Below are positions 955 through 61,058 of a DNA stretch of 64,000 bases, one piece after another; the stretch's first letter is position 1, and each line of letters begins with the position of its first letter. The notes beneath the pieces are model-generated. The model did not search any database and was not told the origin of the DNA. It was given only the letters and a program-made list of their open reading frames with translations. This DNA is from Deltaproteobacteria bacterium. Its GTDB lineage: Bacteria; Desulfobacterota; Desulfomonilia; UBA1062. A program made the position numbers and the translations under genes. The stretch covers positions 1 to 64,000 of the forward strand of contig WFSG01000035.1 of the NCBI GenBank assembly GCA_015486075.1, given 5' to 3'.

Positions 955-2157
955 TTAAAGATTTATTTTAACCCTAGCAAAACGCCTTCTACCCACCTTT
1001 ATGATATAAGTACCAGATGGCAGGATCATGTCCTCATCCTTGATACGCTCCCCATCGAGCCTGACAGCTCCCTGTCGTATCATACGTTTTGCCTCCGAAG
1101 TACTGGTGGTGAGATGGCTATCCTTCAGAACTGTGCATATCCATGGTTTATCTAGTCTCAAGGATACTTCTGGCATGTCATCCGGCAGAGACCTTGCACG
1201 AAATACCTGCTCAAACTCCTGTCTTGCCCTGATGGCATCTGCCTTGCCATGGAAACTTTCTACTAGTTCACTTGCCAGTTCCATCTTTACCTCCATGGGA
1301 TGTAACTGTCCGTTTTCAACCCTTGTCTTCATTAGATTTATTTCTTCGAGCTTCTTTGAACTAAGCAATTCATAATATCTCCACATAAGCTCATCTGAGA
1401 TTGACATCAACTTGCCAAACATCTCGGACGGCTTATCGTTTATACCTATGTAGTTGTTGTAGGACTTACTCATCTTTTGAACACCGTCCAGTCCCTCGAG
1501 CAAAGGTAATGTGATAATGACCTGCGGATCTTGACCATAGGCCTTCTGAATCTCTCTTGCCATCAACAAGTTAAATACCTGGTCTGTGCCTCCAAGCTCT
1601 ACGTCCGCATTCAATGCAACGGAATCATAACCCTGAACAAGGGGATACATGAACTCATGGATACCGATTGGTTTTCGGTCGGCAAACCTAGTCTTAAAAT
1701 CATCCCTCTCTAGCATCCGTGCAACGGTCTGGGTGGATGCTAGCCTTATGAACTCCGTGATGTTCATTTTCGACATCCACTCTGAATTGAATCTAATTTC
1801 GGTCCTGTCAGGGTCGAGCACCTTAAAGATCTGTTGCTGATATGTCCTCGCATTTTCCAATACTTGTTCCCTTGTCATGGGCCTTCTTATCGTGCTTCTT
1901 CCACTAGGATCCCCAATCATGCCTGTGAAATCACCTATTAAGAATATTACCCTATGCCCAGCATCCTGAAATTGCTTCATCTTCCTAAGTAGAACCGTGT
2001 GTCCAAGGTGAATGTCAGGGGCAGTAGGGTCAAAACCCGTTTTAATTCGAAGCGGCCTGCTTTTCTTCAACCTATCAACAAGTTCCTCTCGGGATACGAT
2101 GTCAACCACACCCCTTGTAATCTCTTTAACCTGCTTATCAATGTCCATATGTCCCAT
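955..2157 (-). CDS. tyrS: Tyrosyl-tRNA synthetase
   Basis: Class I aminoacyl-tRNA synthetase that charges tRNA-Tyr in the cytoplasm. The HIGH signature appears as HLGH at residues 50-53 and the KMSKS loop at about 228-232. A C-terminal S4 RNA-binding domain covers roughly the last 65 residues. A length near 400 residues is normal. The frame is open to GTG codons at 2166 and 2163, but I choose ATG at 2157 because AGGTGG lies five bases upstream of it; those GTG codons lie in and next to that ribosome site. The gene is last in a zapB-zapA-fthC-rny-tyrS string and lies directly upstream of the rRNA promoters. Confidence 0.96.
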
Positions 2158-8290: not shown

Positions 8291-9533
8291 AGGTGACATA
8301 AGGCCTCCTGGCGATAAGTCCATAACCCACAGGGCATTAATACTAGGTGCACTGGCCCATGGAAAAACAAGCATAAGAGAACCTCTTAAATCAAATGATA
8401 TATTCAGAACAGTTGAAGCACTGAAAAGATTAGGCATAGATGTAGATGCTAATAACGATGATATATGGGAGGTCCATGGTGGTGGGCAGTTTGAGGAGCC
8501 AAATGATGTAATAGATGCAGGCAACTCTGGTACTACAGCAAGATTGATAACCGGAATACTATCCTCCATTGACGGTGTAAGCATAATAACCGGCGATAAT
8601 TCACTCAAGAGACGCCCAATGGCAAGGCTTATAGAGCCGCTGACATTCATGGGTGCATCTTTCATGGCAAGAAAAGAGAGGTTTCTCCCGCTAGCCATAA
8701 AAGGAAAAAGGCTAAGGGGGATATCATATAGAACAAAGGTGGCTTCTGCACAGGTGAAGTCTGCTATACTGCTTGCTGGTCTCACTGCAGAAGGTATAAC
8801 CGAGGTTATAGAGCCGGCCAAGAGCCGTGACCACACTGAAAAGATGCTAGCTTATCTCGGTGCGTCATTAAGTATAGACGGCAACAGTGTGAGGATTAAG
8901 GGAGGTCAAAAGCTTGTCGGAAGGGAGATAGTTGTACCCTCTGATCCATCTTCGGCAGCGTTTCCAGCTGTATGGGCAGCAGCAACATATGGCTCAGAGT
9001 TGATAATAAGGGATATGTGCATAAATCCCACCAGAACAGGATACGTAGAGGTTCTCAAGAGGATGGGTGCTGACATAAAGCTGACAAATATAAGGTATTC
9101 ATCGGGCGAGGGGATAGGAGACATGATTGTAAGGGGGGGCAGCCTAAGGTCAACAGTAATGAAGGATGGCGAGATCCCACGGATAATTGACGAGATACCA
9201 ATCCTTGCCGTTGTTACAGCTTTTGCTGAAGGGGAAAGTGTCATTAGGAATGCAGGGGAACTCAGGCTAAAGGAGACTGACAGGATCGCTGCCATGGCAG
9301 AGGGACTTAAATCACTAGGTGCTGATGTGGATATCTTAGAAGATGGCATGGTAATAAAAGGCCGAGCAAGGTTCCATTCTGGCAGTATCAGGACCTTCGG
9401 TGACCATAGGATAGCCATGGCTTTTTATATACTCGGTAAGATAGCGGATATCGAGATAGAACTTGACGACATGGACTGCGTGAACGTCTCTTATCCTGGT
9501 TTTTTTAATGCCATGGAAAACATCGGTGGGTAA
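8280..9533 (+). CDS. aroA: 3-phosphoshikimate 1-carboxyvinyltransferase (EPSP synthase)
   Basis: Joins shikimate 3-phosphate and phosphoenolpyruvate in the shikimate pathway. The PEP/S3P loop PGDKSITHRA is near residue 10, DAGNSGTTARL near 83, and KETDRIAAMAEGL near 340, all intact. The protein has 417 residues. ATG at 8280 lies inside the end of tyrA and is preceded by AAGGAGA at a normal distance. A TTG three bases earlier is less likely. The gene sits after the branch-point enzymes in the same operon, although its own step lies upstream of chorismate. Confidence 0.95.
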   Translation: MKVKGDIRPPGDKSITHRALILGALAHGKTSIREPLKSNDIFRTVEALKRLGIDVDANNDDIWEVHGGGQFEEPNDVIDAGNSGTTARLITGILSSIDGVSIITGDNSLKRRPMARLIEPLTFMGASFMARKERFLPLAIKGKRLRGISYRTKVASAQVKSAILLAGLTAEGITEVIEPAKSRDHTEKMLAYLGASLSIDGNSVRIKGGQKLVGREIVVPSDPSSAAFPAVWAAATYGSELIIRDMCINPTRTGYVEVLKRMGADIKLTNIRYSSGEGIGDMIVRGGSLRSTVMKDGEIPRIIDEIPILAVVTAFAEGESVIRNAGELRLKETDRIAAMAEGLKSLGADVDILEDGMVIKGRARFHSGSIRTFGDHRIAMAFYILGKIADIEIELDDMDCVNVSYPGFFNAMENIGG

Positions 9534-10188
9534 CAGGATAATTACTATAGACGGCCCTGCTGGAACAGGGAAATCGACCGTTGCTAAAGGGATTGCGGAA
9601 AGGCTAGGTTTCATCTACTTGGACACCGGTGCATTATACAGGGCTGCTGCACTAAAAATAAGTTCTTCCCAAATAAATCCAGACAATGAAGAAGATTGTG
9701 CCAGGGTAATATCTACCTCTACTATAAGCATCTGTGGAGATAGGACGTTTATAGATGGCAAAGATGTATCAGAAGAAATAAGATCTAGCTATATCAGTGA
9801 CCTTGCCTCAAGGATAGCAACCCTACAAAGCGTAAGGAAAGAACTCATCAGTATACAGAGGTCAATAGCTCTGCTTTCTTCTATAGTTGCAGAAGGCAGA
9901 GACATGGGTTCAGTAGTGTTCCCTGATGCAGATGTAAAGTTCTTTCTAGATGCGATAGACAGGGAGAGGGCAAGGAGAAGATATCTGGAACTTCTTGACA
10001 AGGGTTACAACGCAGAGTTCAAAAAGGTTCTAACAGAGATACGTAGAAGGGATTCAAGAGACAAGACAAGAAAGATTTCCCCCCTAGTTATACCAAAGGA
10101 CGCAATTGTTGTAGATACAACACACCTTACACGTGAACAAGTGTTGTCCAAGCTCTTGGAGATTATAAGATTGCGCTTATCCGATTAA
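9526..10188 (+). CDS. cmk: Cytidylate kinase
   Basis: Phosphorylates CMP and dCMP. The Walker A loop IDGPAGTGKST is near the start, followed by LDTGALYRA and EGRDMGSVVFPDADVKFFLDA, which are the family's NMP-binding and lid motifs. I choose GTG at 9526, which overlaps the aroA stop (GTGGGTAA) and has GGAAA upstream. An ATG at 9508 would add six residues but has no ribosome site. The aroA-cmk junction is common in bacteria. The 3' end runs 12 bases into the convergent gene at 10177. Confidence 0.94.
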   Translation: MGNRIITIDGPAGTGKSTVAKGIAERLGFIYLDTGALYRAAALKISSSQINPDNEEDCARVISTSTISICGDRTFIDGKDVSEEIRSSYISDLASRIATLQSVRKELISIQRSIALLSSIVAEGRDMGSVVFPDADVKFFLDAIDRERARRRYLELLDKGYNAEFKKVLTEIRRRDSRDKTRKISPLVIPKDAIVVDTTHLTREQVLSKLLEIIRLRLSD

Positions 10189-10401
10189 AAGATTGGACTT
10201 CTTTTGTTTATTCCTCTCTGTCTGTTTCTTCTTGATATCCTGTGCCAGGTAGTCCAACAGCTCCTTGGAGAAATCTACAATATCCTTGTTATTAAAACCA
10301 TTGTTCTTTAGTTCCCTGTACATGGTCTTAGCCAATACTTTTGTAGCCTTTTCAGGCTTCATATTATTCATAATCATGTTTAACGTGCCCTTTCTTCCCA
10401 T
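10177..10401 (-). CDS. Conserved-looking 74-residue basic protein, unknown function
   Basis: I do not recognise this protein. It has 74 residues, is helical by composition and strongly basic at the C-terminus (DIKKKQTERNKQKKS), with no signal peptide, membrane segment or cysteine. Evidence that it is real: GAGGTG five bases before ATG 10401, and a sigma-54 promoter of near-consensus sequence just upstream (10428-10443). Its tail overlaps the convergent cmk gene by 12 bases. A small regulatory or adaptor protein expressed under nitrogen, motility or stress control would fit, but nothing in the sequence names the role. Confidence 0.72.
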   Translation of the reverse strand: MGRKGTLNMIMNNMKPEKATKVLAKTMYRELKNNGFNNKDIVDFSKELLDYLAQDIKKKQTERNKQKKSNLLIG

Positions 10402-10427
10402 ATCTACACCTCGTTTCGTGTATCAAG

Positions 10428-10443
10428 AGCAAGGTCTGTGCCA
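10428..10443 (-). promoter_or_regulatory. Sigma-54 (-24/-12) promoter
   Basis: On the minus strand the sequence TGGCAC-AGACC-TTGCT runs from 10443 to 10428, an essentially perfect RpoN site with GG and GC separated by ten bases. Transcription would begin about 12 bases past the GC, near 10417, giving a short leader that contains GAGGTG before ATG 10401. It belongs to the 74-residue gene. No enhancer-binding regulator is encoded in this window, and I see no clear upstream activator palindrome in the 190-base divergent gap. Confidence 0.75.
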
Positions 10444-10595
10444 AATCTTGCTTCCATAATAAATCTTATAAAATCAACGTGTTATAAACCGGGTACTCTT
10501 GTATAACAACATCCAAGTGTGTCTATTTTGCAATGAGCTGTGAATTTAATCCAACTTGATAAATATTGATATACTATAGTAAGAGAATAGATACA

Positions 10596-11258
10596 ATGCT
10601 AGAAGATACTAATATATCAAGAAAGATATCAATAATAGAGATTATCATTGTTGTAATCTTGGTCATTGTATGGATTTCTTCAGGCATCATCATATTCATA
10701 TCGAAAAAAGACCACCTTTTAGCCATGGCAAGTCTGCAGGAAAAGATCCTCGAAATTCCAGAGAATTACTTAAATGCAAGCCTCAACACAGGCCATGAAG
10801 AAAGCGTATTAAAAATGTTAGAAAAATCCTGGCCACCAGATAATCCATTCAAACTTTTCATTGCAAGAGAAGGATCCATAATATTCGCGACACCCACATT
10901 CACAAAACAGGCGGGTAATAAAGAACGTAGGATGCCAAGGATCTCAAACGAGCTACTAAATATATTATCTAGCAGGGTTCTCAAGGAGAAAAGGGGCGAG
11001 GCCTGGATTGGACGGGACAAGAATTCAGGCTTTCTAGCTACGTGGTCCGTGGCAGGTGGACACGGTAAAGGTATTATCATAGGTATTCTATCAAGCGAAG
11101 ACACACTGCTTAGTATATCTGGCTACTACGAGTATAGACTCCTTATAATGGTATGCGCTGGCATACTATCCGTTCTGATTCTATTCTTACTTATATGGTC
11201 CTTGTCCTGGATACGCATCACCTACCTTTACAGCAAGGCCCTCCAAGATAAGGAATGA
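10596..11258 (+). CDS. Membrane protein with one extracytoplasmic domain, sensor-like, no output domain
   Basis: About 220 residues: a first membrane helix (about 14-38, IEIIIVVILVIVWISSGIII), an extracytoplasmic domain of about 145 residues, a second helix (about 183-210, LLIMVCAGILSVLILFLLIW) and a short cytoplasmic tail ending ALQDKE. This is the layout of the input half of a sensor kinase or chemoreceptor, but the HAMP, kinase or signalling part is absent. The stop codon comes right after the position where a dimerisation helix would begin. It could be a truncated sensor or a free-standing signalling partner. ATG 10596 is preferred over an upstream TTG. No function can be assigned. Confidence 0.65.
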   Translation: MLEDTNISRKISIIEIIIVVILVIVWISSGIIIFISKKDHLLAMASLQEKILEIPENYLNASLNTGHEESVLKMLEKSWPPDNPFKLFIAREGSIIFATPTFTKQAGNKERRMPRISNELLNILSSRVLKEKRGEAWIGRDKNSGFLATWSVAGGHGKGIIIGILSSEDTLLSISGYYEYRLLIMVCAGILSVLILFLLIWSLSWIRITYLYSKALQDKE

Positions 11259-11263
11259 TAAAC

Positions 11264-12607
11264 TCACACACCCTTTCTTGCTCTGTTTGCAGCTATGAGT
11301 ATAGGATCCCATGCAGGCGCAAACGGGGGTGCATACCCGAGATCTAGCCTGTATATGTCCTCAACTGTCATACCAGCATATAAAGCTGCAGCAAGTACAT
11401 TTATTCTGAGAGCAGCGCCTTCCTTCCCTATCATCTGTGCGCCAAGCAGTCTCCCCGAACCCTTCTCGGTTATGAACTGAACAGTAATCGGCCAGCCACC
11501 TACATAGTGCTTGGAGCGGGACCTGTGACGTATATTGATGGCATATGCATCAAGACCCTCGTTCTTTGCCTCTTTAAGGCTGAGTCCTGTCCTAGCCACT
11601 TCCAGATCGAATATCTTGGAAACTGCAGTACCAACTATCCCTTTAAATTCTGATTTAAGGCCTCCAATATTCTCCCCGGCAATCCTACCTGCCTTGTTGG
11701 CGGTTGTTCCCAGTGGAATATAAGCAGGTTTTTTCAGCACCATGTGATAGGCCTCTGCGCAATCTCCGCCCGAGTATACCCTTTCAAGGTTTGTACGCTG
11801 GTGTCTATCCACGGCTATCGCACCTGTATCGCCAAGCTCAACGCCTATTTTTTCAGCTAGATCCACATTCGGTAAGGCACCCTTTGCTATAAGAACAGTA
11901 TCTGCACTGAATTCACCCTTGTTCGTTATAACCTTCTGAACCCTGGTATTGCCTTGGAAGGACAGCACATCTATGCCAGTCTCAATAGTTACACCTTTTG
12001 ACTTGACCTCCTCTTCCACCAGTTGTGACATCTCTGGGTCAAAGTTGAGCAGCATCTGAGAGGTCTTTTTCAGTATTGTAACATTCTTGCCCAGTTCCAC
12101 GAAAGCCTCGGCCATCTCCAGCCCTATGTAGCCACCACCACATATAACCACGTCTTTACCGCTCAATGCGCTTTGCTGAATACGAATCGCATCCTCAACC
12201 GTCCTGAGTGTATTAACACCATCGAGGCCTTCTCCTGGCACACCAAGACCTTTACCCTTTGCTCCAGTTGCTATCATGAGATAGTCGAAACCATGCCTTG
12301 ATGTCTTTCCATCCTCCAGGTTCAAGACATCTACATAACCCCTTTCGTAATCGATGTTCACCACCTCGTGCCGTCTGTGAATACGTATTGACCTCTTTCT
12401 TTCGAATTCCTCGGGTGTAATCTCTATCAGGTCATCGGGAGTTGTCAACATACCAGACACAAAATACGGTTCAGAGCATGCACCGTAAGATATGTAACCA
12501 CTCTTTTCGAACACCTCGACCTCAATATCGTTTTTTTTAAGCCTCTTTGCAGCGCTTGCAGCTGACAAGCCTGCTGCCACACCGCCTGCAACAACCAATC
12601 TCTCCAT
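11264..12607 (-). CDS. FAD/NAD(P)-dependent oxidoreductase of the CoA-disulfide reductase / NADH oxidase family
   Basis: A 447-residue flavoprotein with an FAD motif GGVAAGLSAASAAKR at the N-terminus, an NAD motif CGGGYIGLEMAEAF near residue 155, and a C-terminal dimerisation domain. A single cysteine in SYGACSEPY (Cys44) sits where CoA-disulfide reductases, NADH oxidases and persulfide reductases carry their redox cysteine. The exact substrate (CoA disulfide, oxygen, polysulfide or persulfide) cannot be decided from sequence. There is no C-terminal rhodanese domain. The start ATG 12607 has CAGGAGGAG upstream. It is divergent from a TetR regulator, its likely controller. Confidence 0.85.
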   Translation of the reverse strand: MERLVVAGGVAAGLSAASAAKRLKKNDIEVEVFEKSGYISYGACSEPYFVSGMLTTPDDLIEITPEEFERKRSIRIHRRHEVVNIDYERGYVDVLNLEDGKTSRHGFDYLMIATGAKGKGLGVPGEGLDGVNTLRTVEDAIRIQQSALSGKDVVICGGGYIGLEMAEAFVELGKNVTILKKTSQMLLNFDPEMSQLVEEEVKSKGVTIETGIDVLSFQGNTRVQKVITNKGEFSADTVLIAKGALPNVDLAEKIGVELGDTGAIAVDRHQRTNLERVYSGGDCAEAYHMVLKKPAYIPLGTTANKAGRIAGENIGGLKSEFKGIVGTAVSKIFDLEVARTGLSLKEAKNEGLDAYAINIRHRSRSKHYVGGWPITVQFITEKGSGRLLGAQMIGKEGAALRINVLAAALYAGMTVEDIYRLDLGYAPPFAPAWDPILIAANRARKGV

Positions 12608-59615: not shown

Positions 59616-61058
59616 CTAATCAACGCGGATAATCCTAAAGGTATCTGTTCCACCTACCCTGCCCGGAAGCAGGCCTTCAGTAAGTATGACCTTATCGCCT
59701 TTTTTTGCTAGGCCATTATTCTTTATGAACTGAATAACCCCATCAAGAATATTTCCCCTTCTTTCCATCAAGACTGGATATACACCGTATGAAAGGGAGA
59801 GGAAATTACATACAGATAGACTATCGCTAAAAGATATTATCCAGCATCCTGGTTTGAACCTGGACACAAGTCTAGGCGTACTTCCACTGTGAGTTGGTGT
59901 GAGTATAAAACGTATGTCAAGCATCCTCAACGCATCCACAAGGGAAGAAGAAATCACGTCTTCAATACTTATGGCACGAAGTCCTGCCTTATAAACACGA
60001 CCCTGCGTATCCTCCAAGACAGGCCTATGTATCCTGTTCTTCTCGGTGACAGCAGCAATCTTTGACATCATCCTCACGGTATCAACTGGATAATCCCCTA
60101 TGGCGGTCTCTTCCGAGAGCATCACGGCATCCGTACCATCAAGTATGGCATTGGCAACGTCGGTCACCTCTGCTCTTGTTGGTCTTATATTGGATGTCAT
60201 GGATTCCAACATCTGGGTCGCAGTGATCACTGGCTTTGCCATCATGTTTGCCTTGCGAATAATCATTTTCTGTACAACAGGTACCCTTTCTATGGGTATC
60301 TCAACCCCTAGGTCACCACGCGCAACCATAATGCCATCACAGGCCTCAAGTATTTCGTCTATATTTTCTACTGCCTGCCTTCTTTCTATCTTTGCCACCA
60401 CGTAAATATCTTTGCCTTTGTCCGACGCAAACTTCCTGACCTTCTTTATATCGTTCGCGCTGCCTGCAAACGATACGCTAACAGCATCGACACCATTCTC
60501 CAGGGTAAAGCTTAGAAGTTCCATATCCCTATCTGTTACAGCATCTACTGCGAGCTCTGCTCCAGGTACATTAAGGCCCTTGCGCGATAGCAACTTCCCT
60601 CCTATAACAACTTTACAGAGCGCACTGTCATCCCTTGTTTCCAGCACCCTTAATTGTATGAAACCATCGTTTAAATATACCTTGTTCCCCTTTCTAAGGC
60701 TCTTTACAAGACCCTTGAACTCCACCGGTATCACAGATTTGTCCCCAGTGACATCACGCACCGTTAGAGTCACATTATCACCCTTCTTCAGCATAATAGG
60801 TTCCCTCGCAAGCATTCCCACACGTATCTTTGGACCAGGGAGGTCTGCGAGGATAGCAACATCCTTACCCAGTTCTCTCGAGAGTCTCCTTATGAGCCCT
60901 ATATCCCTTGCATGCTGTTCCAGACTCCCATGGCTCAGATTTAGGCGGGCAACGTTCATCCCGGCTCTAACAAGGCCCTTGAGCACTCTCTCTGAACGCG
61001 ATGCAGGCCCTATAGTACAAACAACCTTGGTCTTATGCGATGGTAGCCTAAATGACAT
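59616..61058 (-). CDS. pyk: Pyruvate kinase
   Basis: Final ATP-forming step of glycolysis, 480 residues. TKVVCTIGPASRS, AGMNVARLNLSHGS, DLPGPKIRVG, the lysine/Mg region VVAKIERRQAVENIDEI, IMVARGDLGVEIP and KPVITATQMLESM are all intact. The allosteric C-terminal domain follows (about 350-480). GGAGG precedes ATG 61058. It is monocistronic or preceded by a 57-codon frame and by tRNA-Pro on the same strand. Confidence 0.97.
   Translation of the reverse strand: MSFRLPSHKTKVVCTIGPASRSERVLKGLVRAGMNVARLNLSHGSLEQHARDIGLIRRLSRELGKDVAILADLPGPKIRVGMLAREPIMLKKGDNVTLTVRDVTGDKSVIPVEFKGLVKSLRKGNKVYLNDGFIQLRVLETRDDSALCKVVIGGKLLSRKGLNVPGAELAVDAVTDRDMELLSFTLENGVDAVSVSFAGSANDIKKVRKFASDKGKDIYVVAKIERRQAVENIDEILEACDGIMVARGDLGVEIPIERVPVVQKMIIRKANMMAKPVITATQMLESMTSNIRPTRAEVTDVANAILDGTDAVMLSEETAIGDYPVDTVRMMSKIAAVTEKNRIHRPVLEDTQGRVYKAGLRAISIEDVISSSLVDALRMLDIRFILTPTHSGSTPRLVSRFKPGCWIISFSDSLSVCNFLSLSYGVYPVLMERRGNILDGVIQFIKNNGLAKKGDKVILTEGLLPGRVGGTDTFRIIRVD

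Follow-up and report, generated by a model that had tools for sequence, protein, structure and literature searches.

The window, that is, the whole 64,000-nucleotide stretch of DNA that was analysed, carries on its minus strand an open reading frame of 74 amino acids with an ATG start, here named S74. The frame had been claimed in the original prediction and is present in the list of open reading frames of the window. The coordinates of S74 and of the features surrounding it are collected in Table 1. The placement of S74 opposite cmk and beside a sensor-like membrane protein was also borne out. The cmk gene is convergent with S74, and the 3′ ends of the two genes overlap by 12 bp (10177–10188) in the window and by 12–15 bp in nearly all relatives. 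The gene on the other side is divergent and encodes a membrane protein with a predicted PAS/Cache-like domain.

Table 1. Positions of S74, its promoter elements, and the adjacent genes in the window
Feature	Position	Strand	Remarks
cmk (CMP kinase)	9535–10188	+	convergent with S74; listed ORF begins at 9508
S74 ORF	10177–10401	−	21 orthologues; dN/dS about 0.04; AF2 model
Ribosome-binding site GAGGTG, upstream of S74	10407–10412	−	sequence
Sigma-54 −24/−12 element TGGCACAGACCTTGC	10429–10443	−	conserved in 21/21 orthologues
IHF-like site AATCAACGTGTTA, between UAS and promoter	10472–10484	+	0 mismatches to WATCAANNNNTTR
Putative enhancer (UAS) ATTGCAAAATAGACACA	10518–10534	−	91 bp upstream of −24 box; in 21/21 relatives
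Divergent membrane protein	10596–11258	+	TM, PAS/Cache-like domain, TM, without output domain (predicted)

The gene order in the relatives is groEL, tetR, a poly(A) polymerase-type and/or a CoA-disulfide-reductase-like gene, the membrane protein (often present, divergent), S74, cmk, aroA, tyrA, hisC, and pheA. The divergent membrane gene is present beside S74 in most relatives; similarity searches did not find it at seven loci with both S74 and the UAS (L028, L029, L032, L034, and L038–L040). At 11264–12607 the window contains the CoA-disulfide-reductase-like gene; most relatives have a gene of the poly(A) polymerase/CCA-adding type at this place, and one locus (L026, identical to L004) has both. 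This arrangement suggests that the poly(A) polymerase-type gene was lost or moved in the genus of the window.

Helices are predicted for residues 3–13, 16–33, and 38–73 of S74 (AF2 model, pLDDT 83), and the protein ends in a conserved LIG sequence. The conservation of LIG could in part be a dual-coding constraint, as this segment overlaps the 3′ end of cmk in most genomes. Searches of the S74 sequence against Pfam, NCBIfam, PHROGs, and the PDB returned nothing above the cut-offs, and a fold search with the AF2 model matched no solved relative. A GAF domain is absent from S74. No match to S74 was obtained in the viral contigs that were searched, and none to the Rfam models across 10100–10700. 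The earlier description of the product as unrecognised holds for the curated libraries (Pfam, NCBIfam), and the protein and its domain appear to be undescribed in the libraries searched. Two families, ENCP4 (PF08967; 16.7 bits against a cut-off of 31.4) and RsbU_N (PF08673; 14.7 bits against a cut-off of 25.5, for a single member only), were rejected.

Orthologues of S74 with 74–75 residues and 43–91% identity were obtained from 21 of the 24 genomes of the same family, a set that includes the genome named UBA1062 (L030) and consists almost entirely of metagenome-assembled genomes. The family is accordingly taken to be UBA1062 (Desulfomonilia). The alignment contains 20 invariant residues, among them the terminal LIG. 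No true cmk match was found in the three genomes that lack S74 (none in two and a marginal, partial match at 8.7e-4 in the third). Since cmk is expected in any complete genome of such kind, the S74 locus is most likely missing from these assemblies. For the closest-genus pair of orthologues, which belong to one genus, dN is 0.04, dS is 0.98, and dN/dS is about 0.04; these rates amount to strong purifying selection on the frame. One genome contains a second, partial S74-like copy (L023, G012:C193:10861–11067) without the expected start codon and without a sigma-54 site, which is degenerate or a contaminant. A weak match from the sister family (L138) falls on the opposite strand of a membrane-protein gene and was not retained.

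The original prediction placed a strong sigma-54 site before S74, and the window agrees: a perfect TGGCAC-N5-TTGC lies 27 bases from the ATG, followed by GAGGTG at 10412–10407. TGGCACAGACCTTGC is the only zero-mismatch example of this pattern in the window. When the flanking T residues are added (TTGGCAC-N5-TTGCT), the window contains one match, against a chance expectation of 0.44 at ≤1 mismatch. The element is found before all 21 orthologues, 39–53 bp ahead of the ATG as counted from its first base, and the −24 GG and −12 GC are ten bases apart in the window and in 21/21 orthologues. Loss of the frame or of the GG-N10-GC site in relatives had been named as grounds for abandoning the prediction; both are kept in every orthologue. 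Across 19 relative loci, together about 204 kb, the more stringent pattern TGGCAY-N5-WTGCW matched 18 times at the S74 gene and a single time outside it. From the geometry of sigma-54 promoters, transcription would start at ~10417 and yield a leader of about 16 nt. Further sigma-54-like sites with one mismatch occur in the window at 60322–60336 (minus strand) and 1233–1247 (plus strand), and read TGGCATTATGGTTGC and TGGCATCTGCCTTGC.

Two additional elements precede the promoter. In the alignment of the upstream regions, the 17-bp motif ATTGCANAWTNNNCACA is present in 21/21 relatives, 89–92 bp upstream of the −24 box, with a few members 1–2 bases off. Its shape and position are those of a putative site for an enhancer-binding protein (activator). 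The motif is retained at the loci where the divergent membrane gene was not found and the poly(A) polymerase-type gene adjoins, and it is therefore assigned to the S74 promoter. A genome-wide regulon search by pattern matching returned, for the combination of UAS and promoter, essentially the S74 gene alone per genome, plus a few additional single matches. The second element matches the IHF consensus, WATCAANNNNTTR, and occurs at the identical position and on the same strand in 15 of the 18 non-redundant genomes; 1000 shuffles gave at most 5. An IHF site between enhancer and sigma-54 promoter is common, not obligatory, and the putative site at S74 fits this position. Taken as sequence features, these elements identify a sigma-54 promoter with an enhancer with high confidence. 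The case for a regulated small protein is stronger than first claimed, as the ORF, the −24/−12 element, the UAS, and the IHF-like site are all conserved across relatives.

A hidden Markov model built from the S74 orthologues detected distant homologues within the phylum, the GAF C-termini among them at 2e-8 per genome. The first alignment held no GAF protein, so the matches are independent of the later alignment. Two stand-alone homologues (L115 and L119) are located beside a sir2-like gene (a Sir2-type deacetylase by eye), and both have −24/−12 elements. They share a different conserved upstream element, TGACAC..GTGTCA. A strongly conserved block, ATTGACAC-N-C-N2-ATGTGTCA-N3-GTGACAT, was noted upstream of their sigma-54 site (alignment A5, columns 160–195). 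This block is probably the site of another activator. A third stand-alone homologue (L117) has a histidine-kinase gene in the same locus. At two other loci (L116 and L118) the S74-like domain forms the C-terminus of short GAF-domain proteins (L116:811–1662 and L118:862–1662). The domain was found in about 20 genomes of the class of L116, apparently Desulfuromonadia, and a GAF-type frame with the terminal domain was recovered at 17 loci. Comparison of the S74 group with the GAF C-termini by hhalign gave a probability of 97.5% and an E value of 6e-12 over 51 ungapped columns. On this profile similarity, S74 is the free-standing counterpart of a predicted helical domain that has no name and is located at the C-terminus of GAF-domain proteins. 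The helical C-terminal domain is homologous in the two groups, whereas S74 differs from the GAF proteins in having no GAF domain, in its C-terminal LIG tail, and in its locus.

Several other explanations were weighed. A promoter-like sequence could arise by chance ahead of a spurious ORF, and one match in a 64-kb window is not unusual: of 100 shuffled windows, 35 contained at least one such site at ≤1 mismatch. The −24/−12 site from one genome alone could thus be chance, but the conservation of the ORF, the −24/−12 element, the UAS, and the IHF-like site across 21 genomes decides otherwise and leaves a coincidence with negligible probability. The sigma-54 transcript might instead enter the 3′ end of cmk and lower cmk expression by collision or as an antisense RNA, the peptide being secondary. 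The 3′ overlap found in nearly all relatives is compatible with such a role, as is the finding of no terminator-like site for the minus-strand transcript. We nevertheless regard it as quite unlikely, given the very strong selection on the protein, the retention of S74, with LIG still encoded, at L026 where the overlap with cmk is absent, and the sigma-54 sites of L115 and L119, which adjoin sir2 and not cmk.

The two remaining alternatives concern the function of the protein. S74 and the divergent PAS/Cache-like membrane protein might constitute one sensor–adaptor pair with the divergent regulatory region in common, as the prevalent divergent arrangement and the sensor-like predicted fold lacking an output domain would allow. 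The failure to find the membrane gene by similarity at the seven loci with S74 and the UAS makes this pairing unlikely. S74 might also resemble the Spo0E response-regulator phosphatases and act perhaps on its own activator in a negative feedback. The top PDB match is 2c0s, a 64-residue chain, through GFxxxxxIxFSxEL (E value of 0.31), and for 2/19 members the Spo0E-like Pfam model is listed below its threshold. Both proteins are short helical hairpins that are similar in this stretch. S74 is, however, under every cut-off for Spo0E-like proteins (12.7 bits for PF09388 against 23). It has S-[KRG]-E-[LMI]-[LI] in place of SQELD, the Spo0E-like signature, and E47 is not retained in all distant homologues. 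A Spo0E-like phosphatase activity of S74 would be a weak lead, and the reading as a whole is decidedly improbable.

We favor the explanation that S74 is a core small protein, expressed from an RpoN-dependent one-gene unit, that would serve as a free-standing signalling/adaptor or dimerisation module; taken in its entirety, this account is reasonably probable. The assignment of S74 as a helical signalling/adaptor protein is made with moderate to low confidence and comes from the domain architecture shared with the GAF sensors. On sensing its signal, a specific NtrC/NifA-type activator would bind at 10518–10534, IHF would bend the DNA at 10472–10484, and the activator would contact the sigma-54 polymerase at 10429–10443. 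RpoN-RNA polymerase would then transcribe S74 alone from ~10417. The S74 made on activation may bind a partner via the helical hairpin and possibly also via the conserved LIG tail. The sequences show a conserved protein, a −24/−12 element with two further elements at fixed positions upstream of it, and genes for RpoN, activators, and HU/IHF; the binding, the induction, and the start site are inferred.

The genome encodes one RpoN, 13 strong matches to sigma-54 activators (about 13 full activators), and four HU/IHF proteins. No convincing UAS that would point to autoregulation was detected near the 13 activators, where the best score was 13.7, whereas the true sites all scored at least 19.7. 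Co-absence could not be used to trace the activator: S74 is missing from three genomes most likely only because its locus is unassembled there. The putative 17-bp UAS could serve to identify one activator among the many sigma-54 activators that are still unassigned.

The regulatory design of the S74 promoter is of an already known kind. IHF acts at the sigma-54 promoters of the orp operons in Desulfovibrio vulgaris, as documented (PMC3897727), and a sigma-54 regulome is available for this organism (PMC4641369). These sulfate-reducing relatives, all formerly Deltaproteobacteria, resemble the S74 locus in bringing an activator, IHF, and a −24/−12 element together. The S74 system differs in that other genes are controlled in D. 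vulgaris, whereas here the predicted promoter, with a putative UAS motif of its own, precedes a single small orphan gene. No small sigma-54 protein described in Desulfobacterota was found in the literature. Family UBA1062 (Desulfomonilia) has been proposed to contain syntrophic fatty-acid and butyrate degraders of anaerobic digesters (PMC13248872), and with S74 this lineage gains a small core protein that is clearly regulated.

S74 also defines an unnamed domain, present in GAF-domain proteins as well, that is open to modelling and to tests in cultured relatives. In a more speculative proposal, to which we assign only a small chance, the helical module would constitute a new domain for signalling in Desulfobacterota and would act as the output part when joined to a GAF sensor. 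Free S74 would then be a sigma-54-induced feedback regulator or adaptor of its own activator or of another partner, with the activator devoted to one gene family-wide. The GAF proteins themselves are uncharacterised, and their gene neighbourhoods vary. The GAF gene follows a ThiF/E1-type gene (by eye) at L158, L160, L162, and L165, and a membrane-protein gene at L116, L151, and L154. Homology of the divergent membrane protein of the window with the sensor gene upstream of the L116 GAF gene was rejected at a probability of 9%. The membrane protein encoded upstream of the GAF gene at L116 has a cysteine-rich tail (CCVCKKIRNEQNEW...CPSCL).
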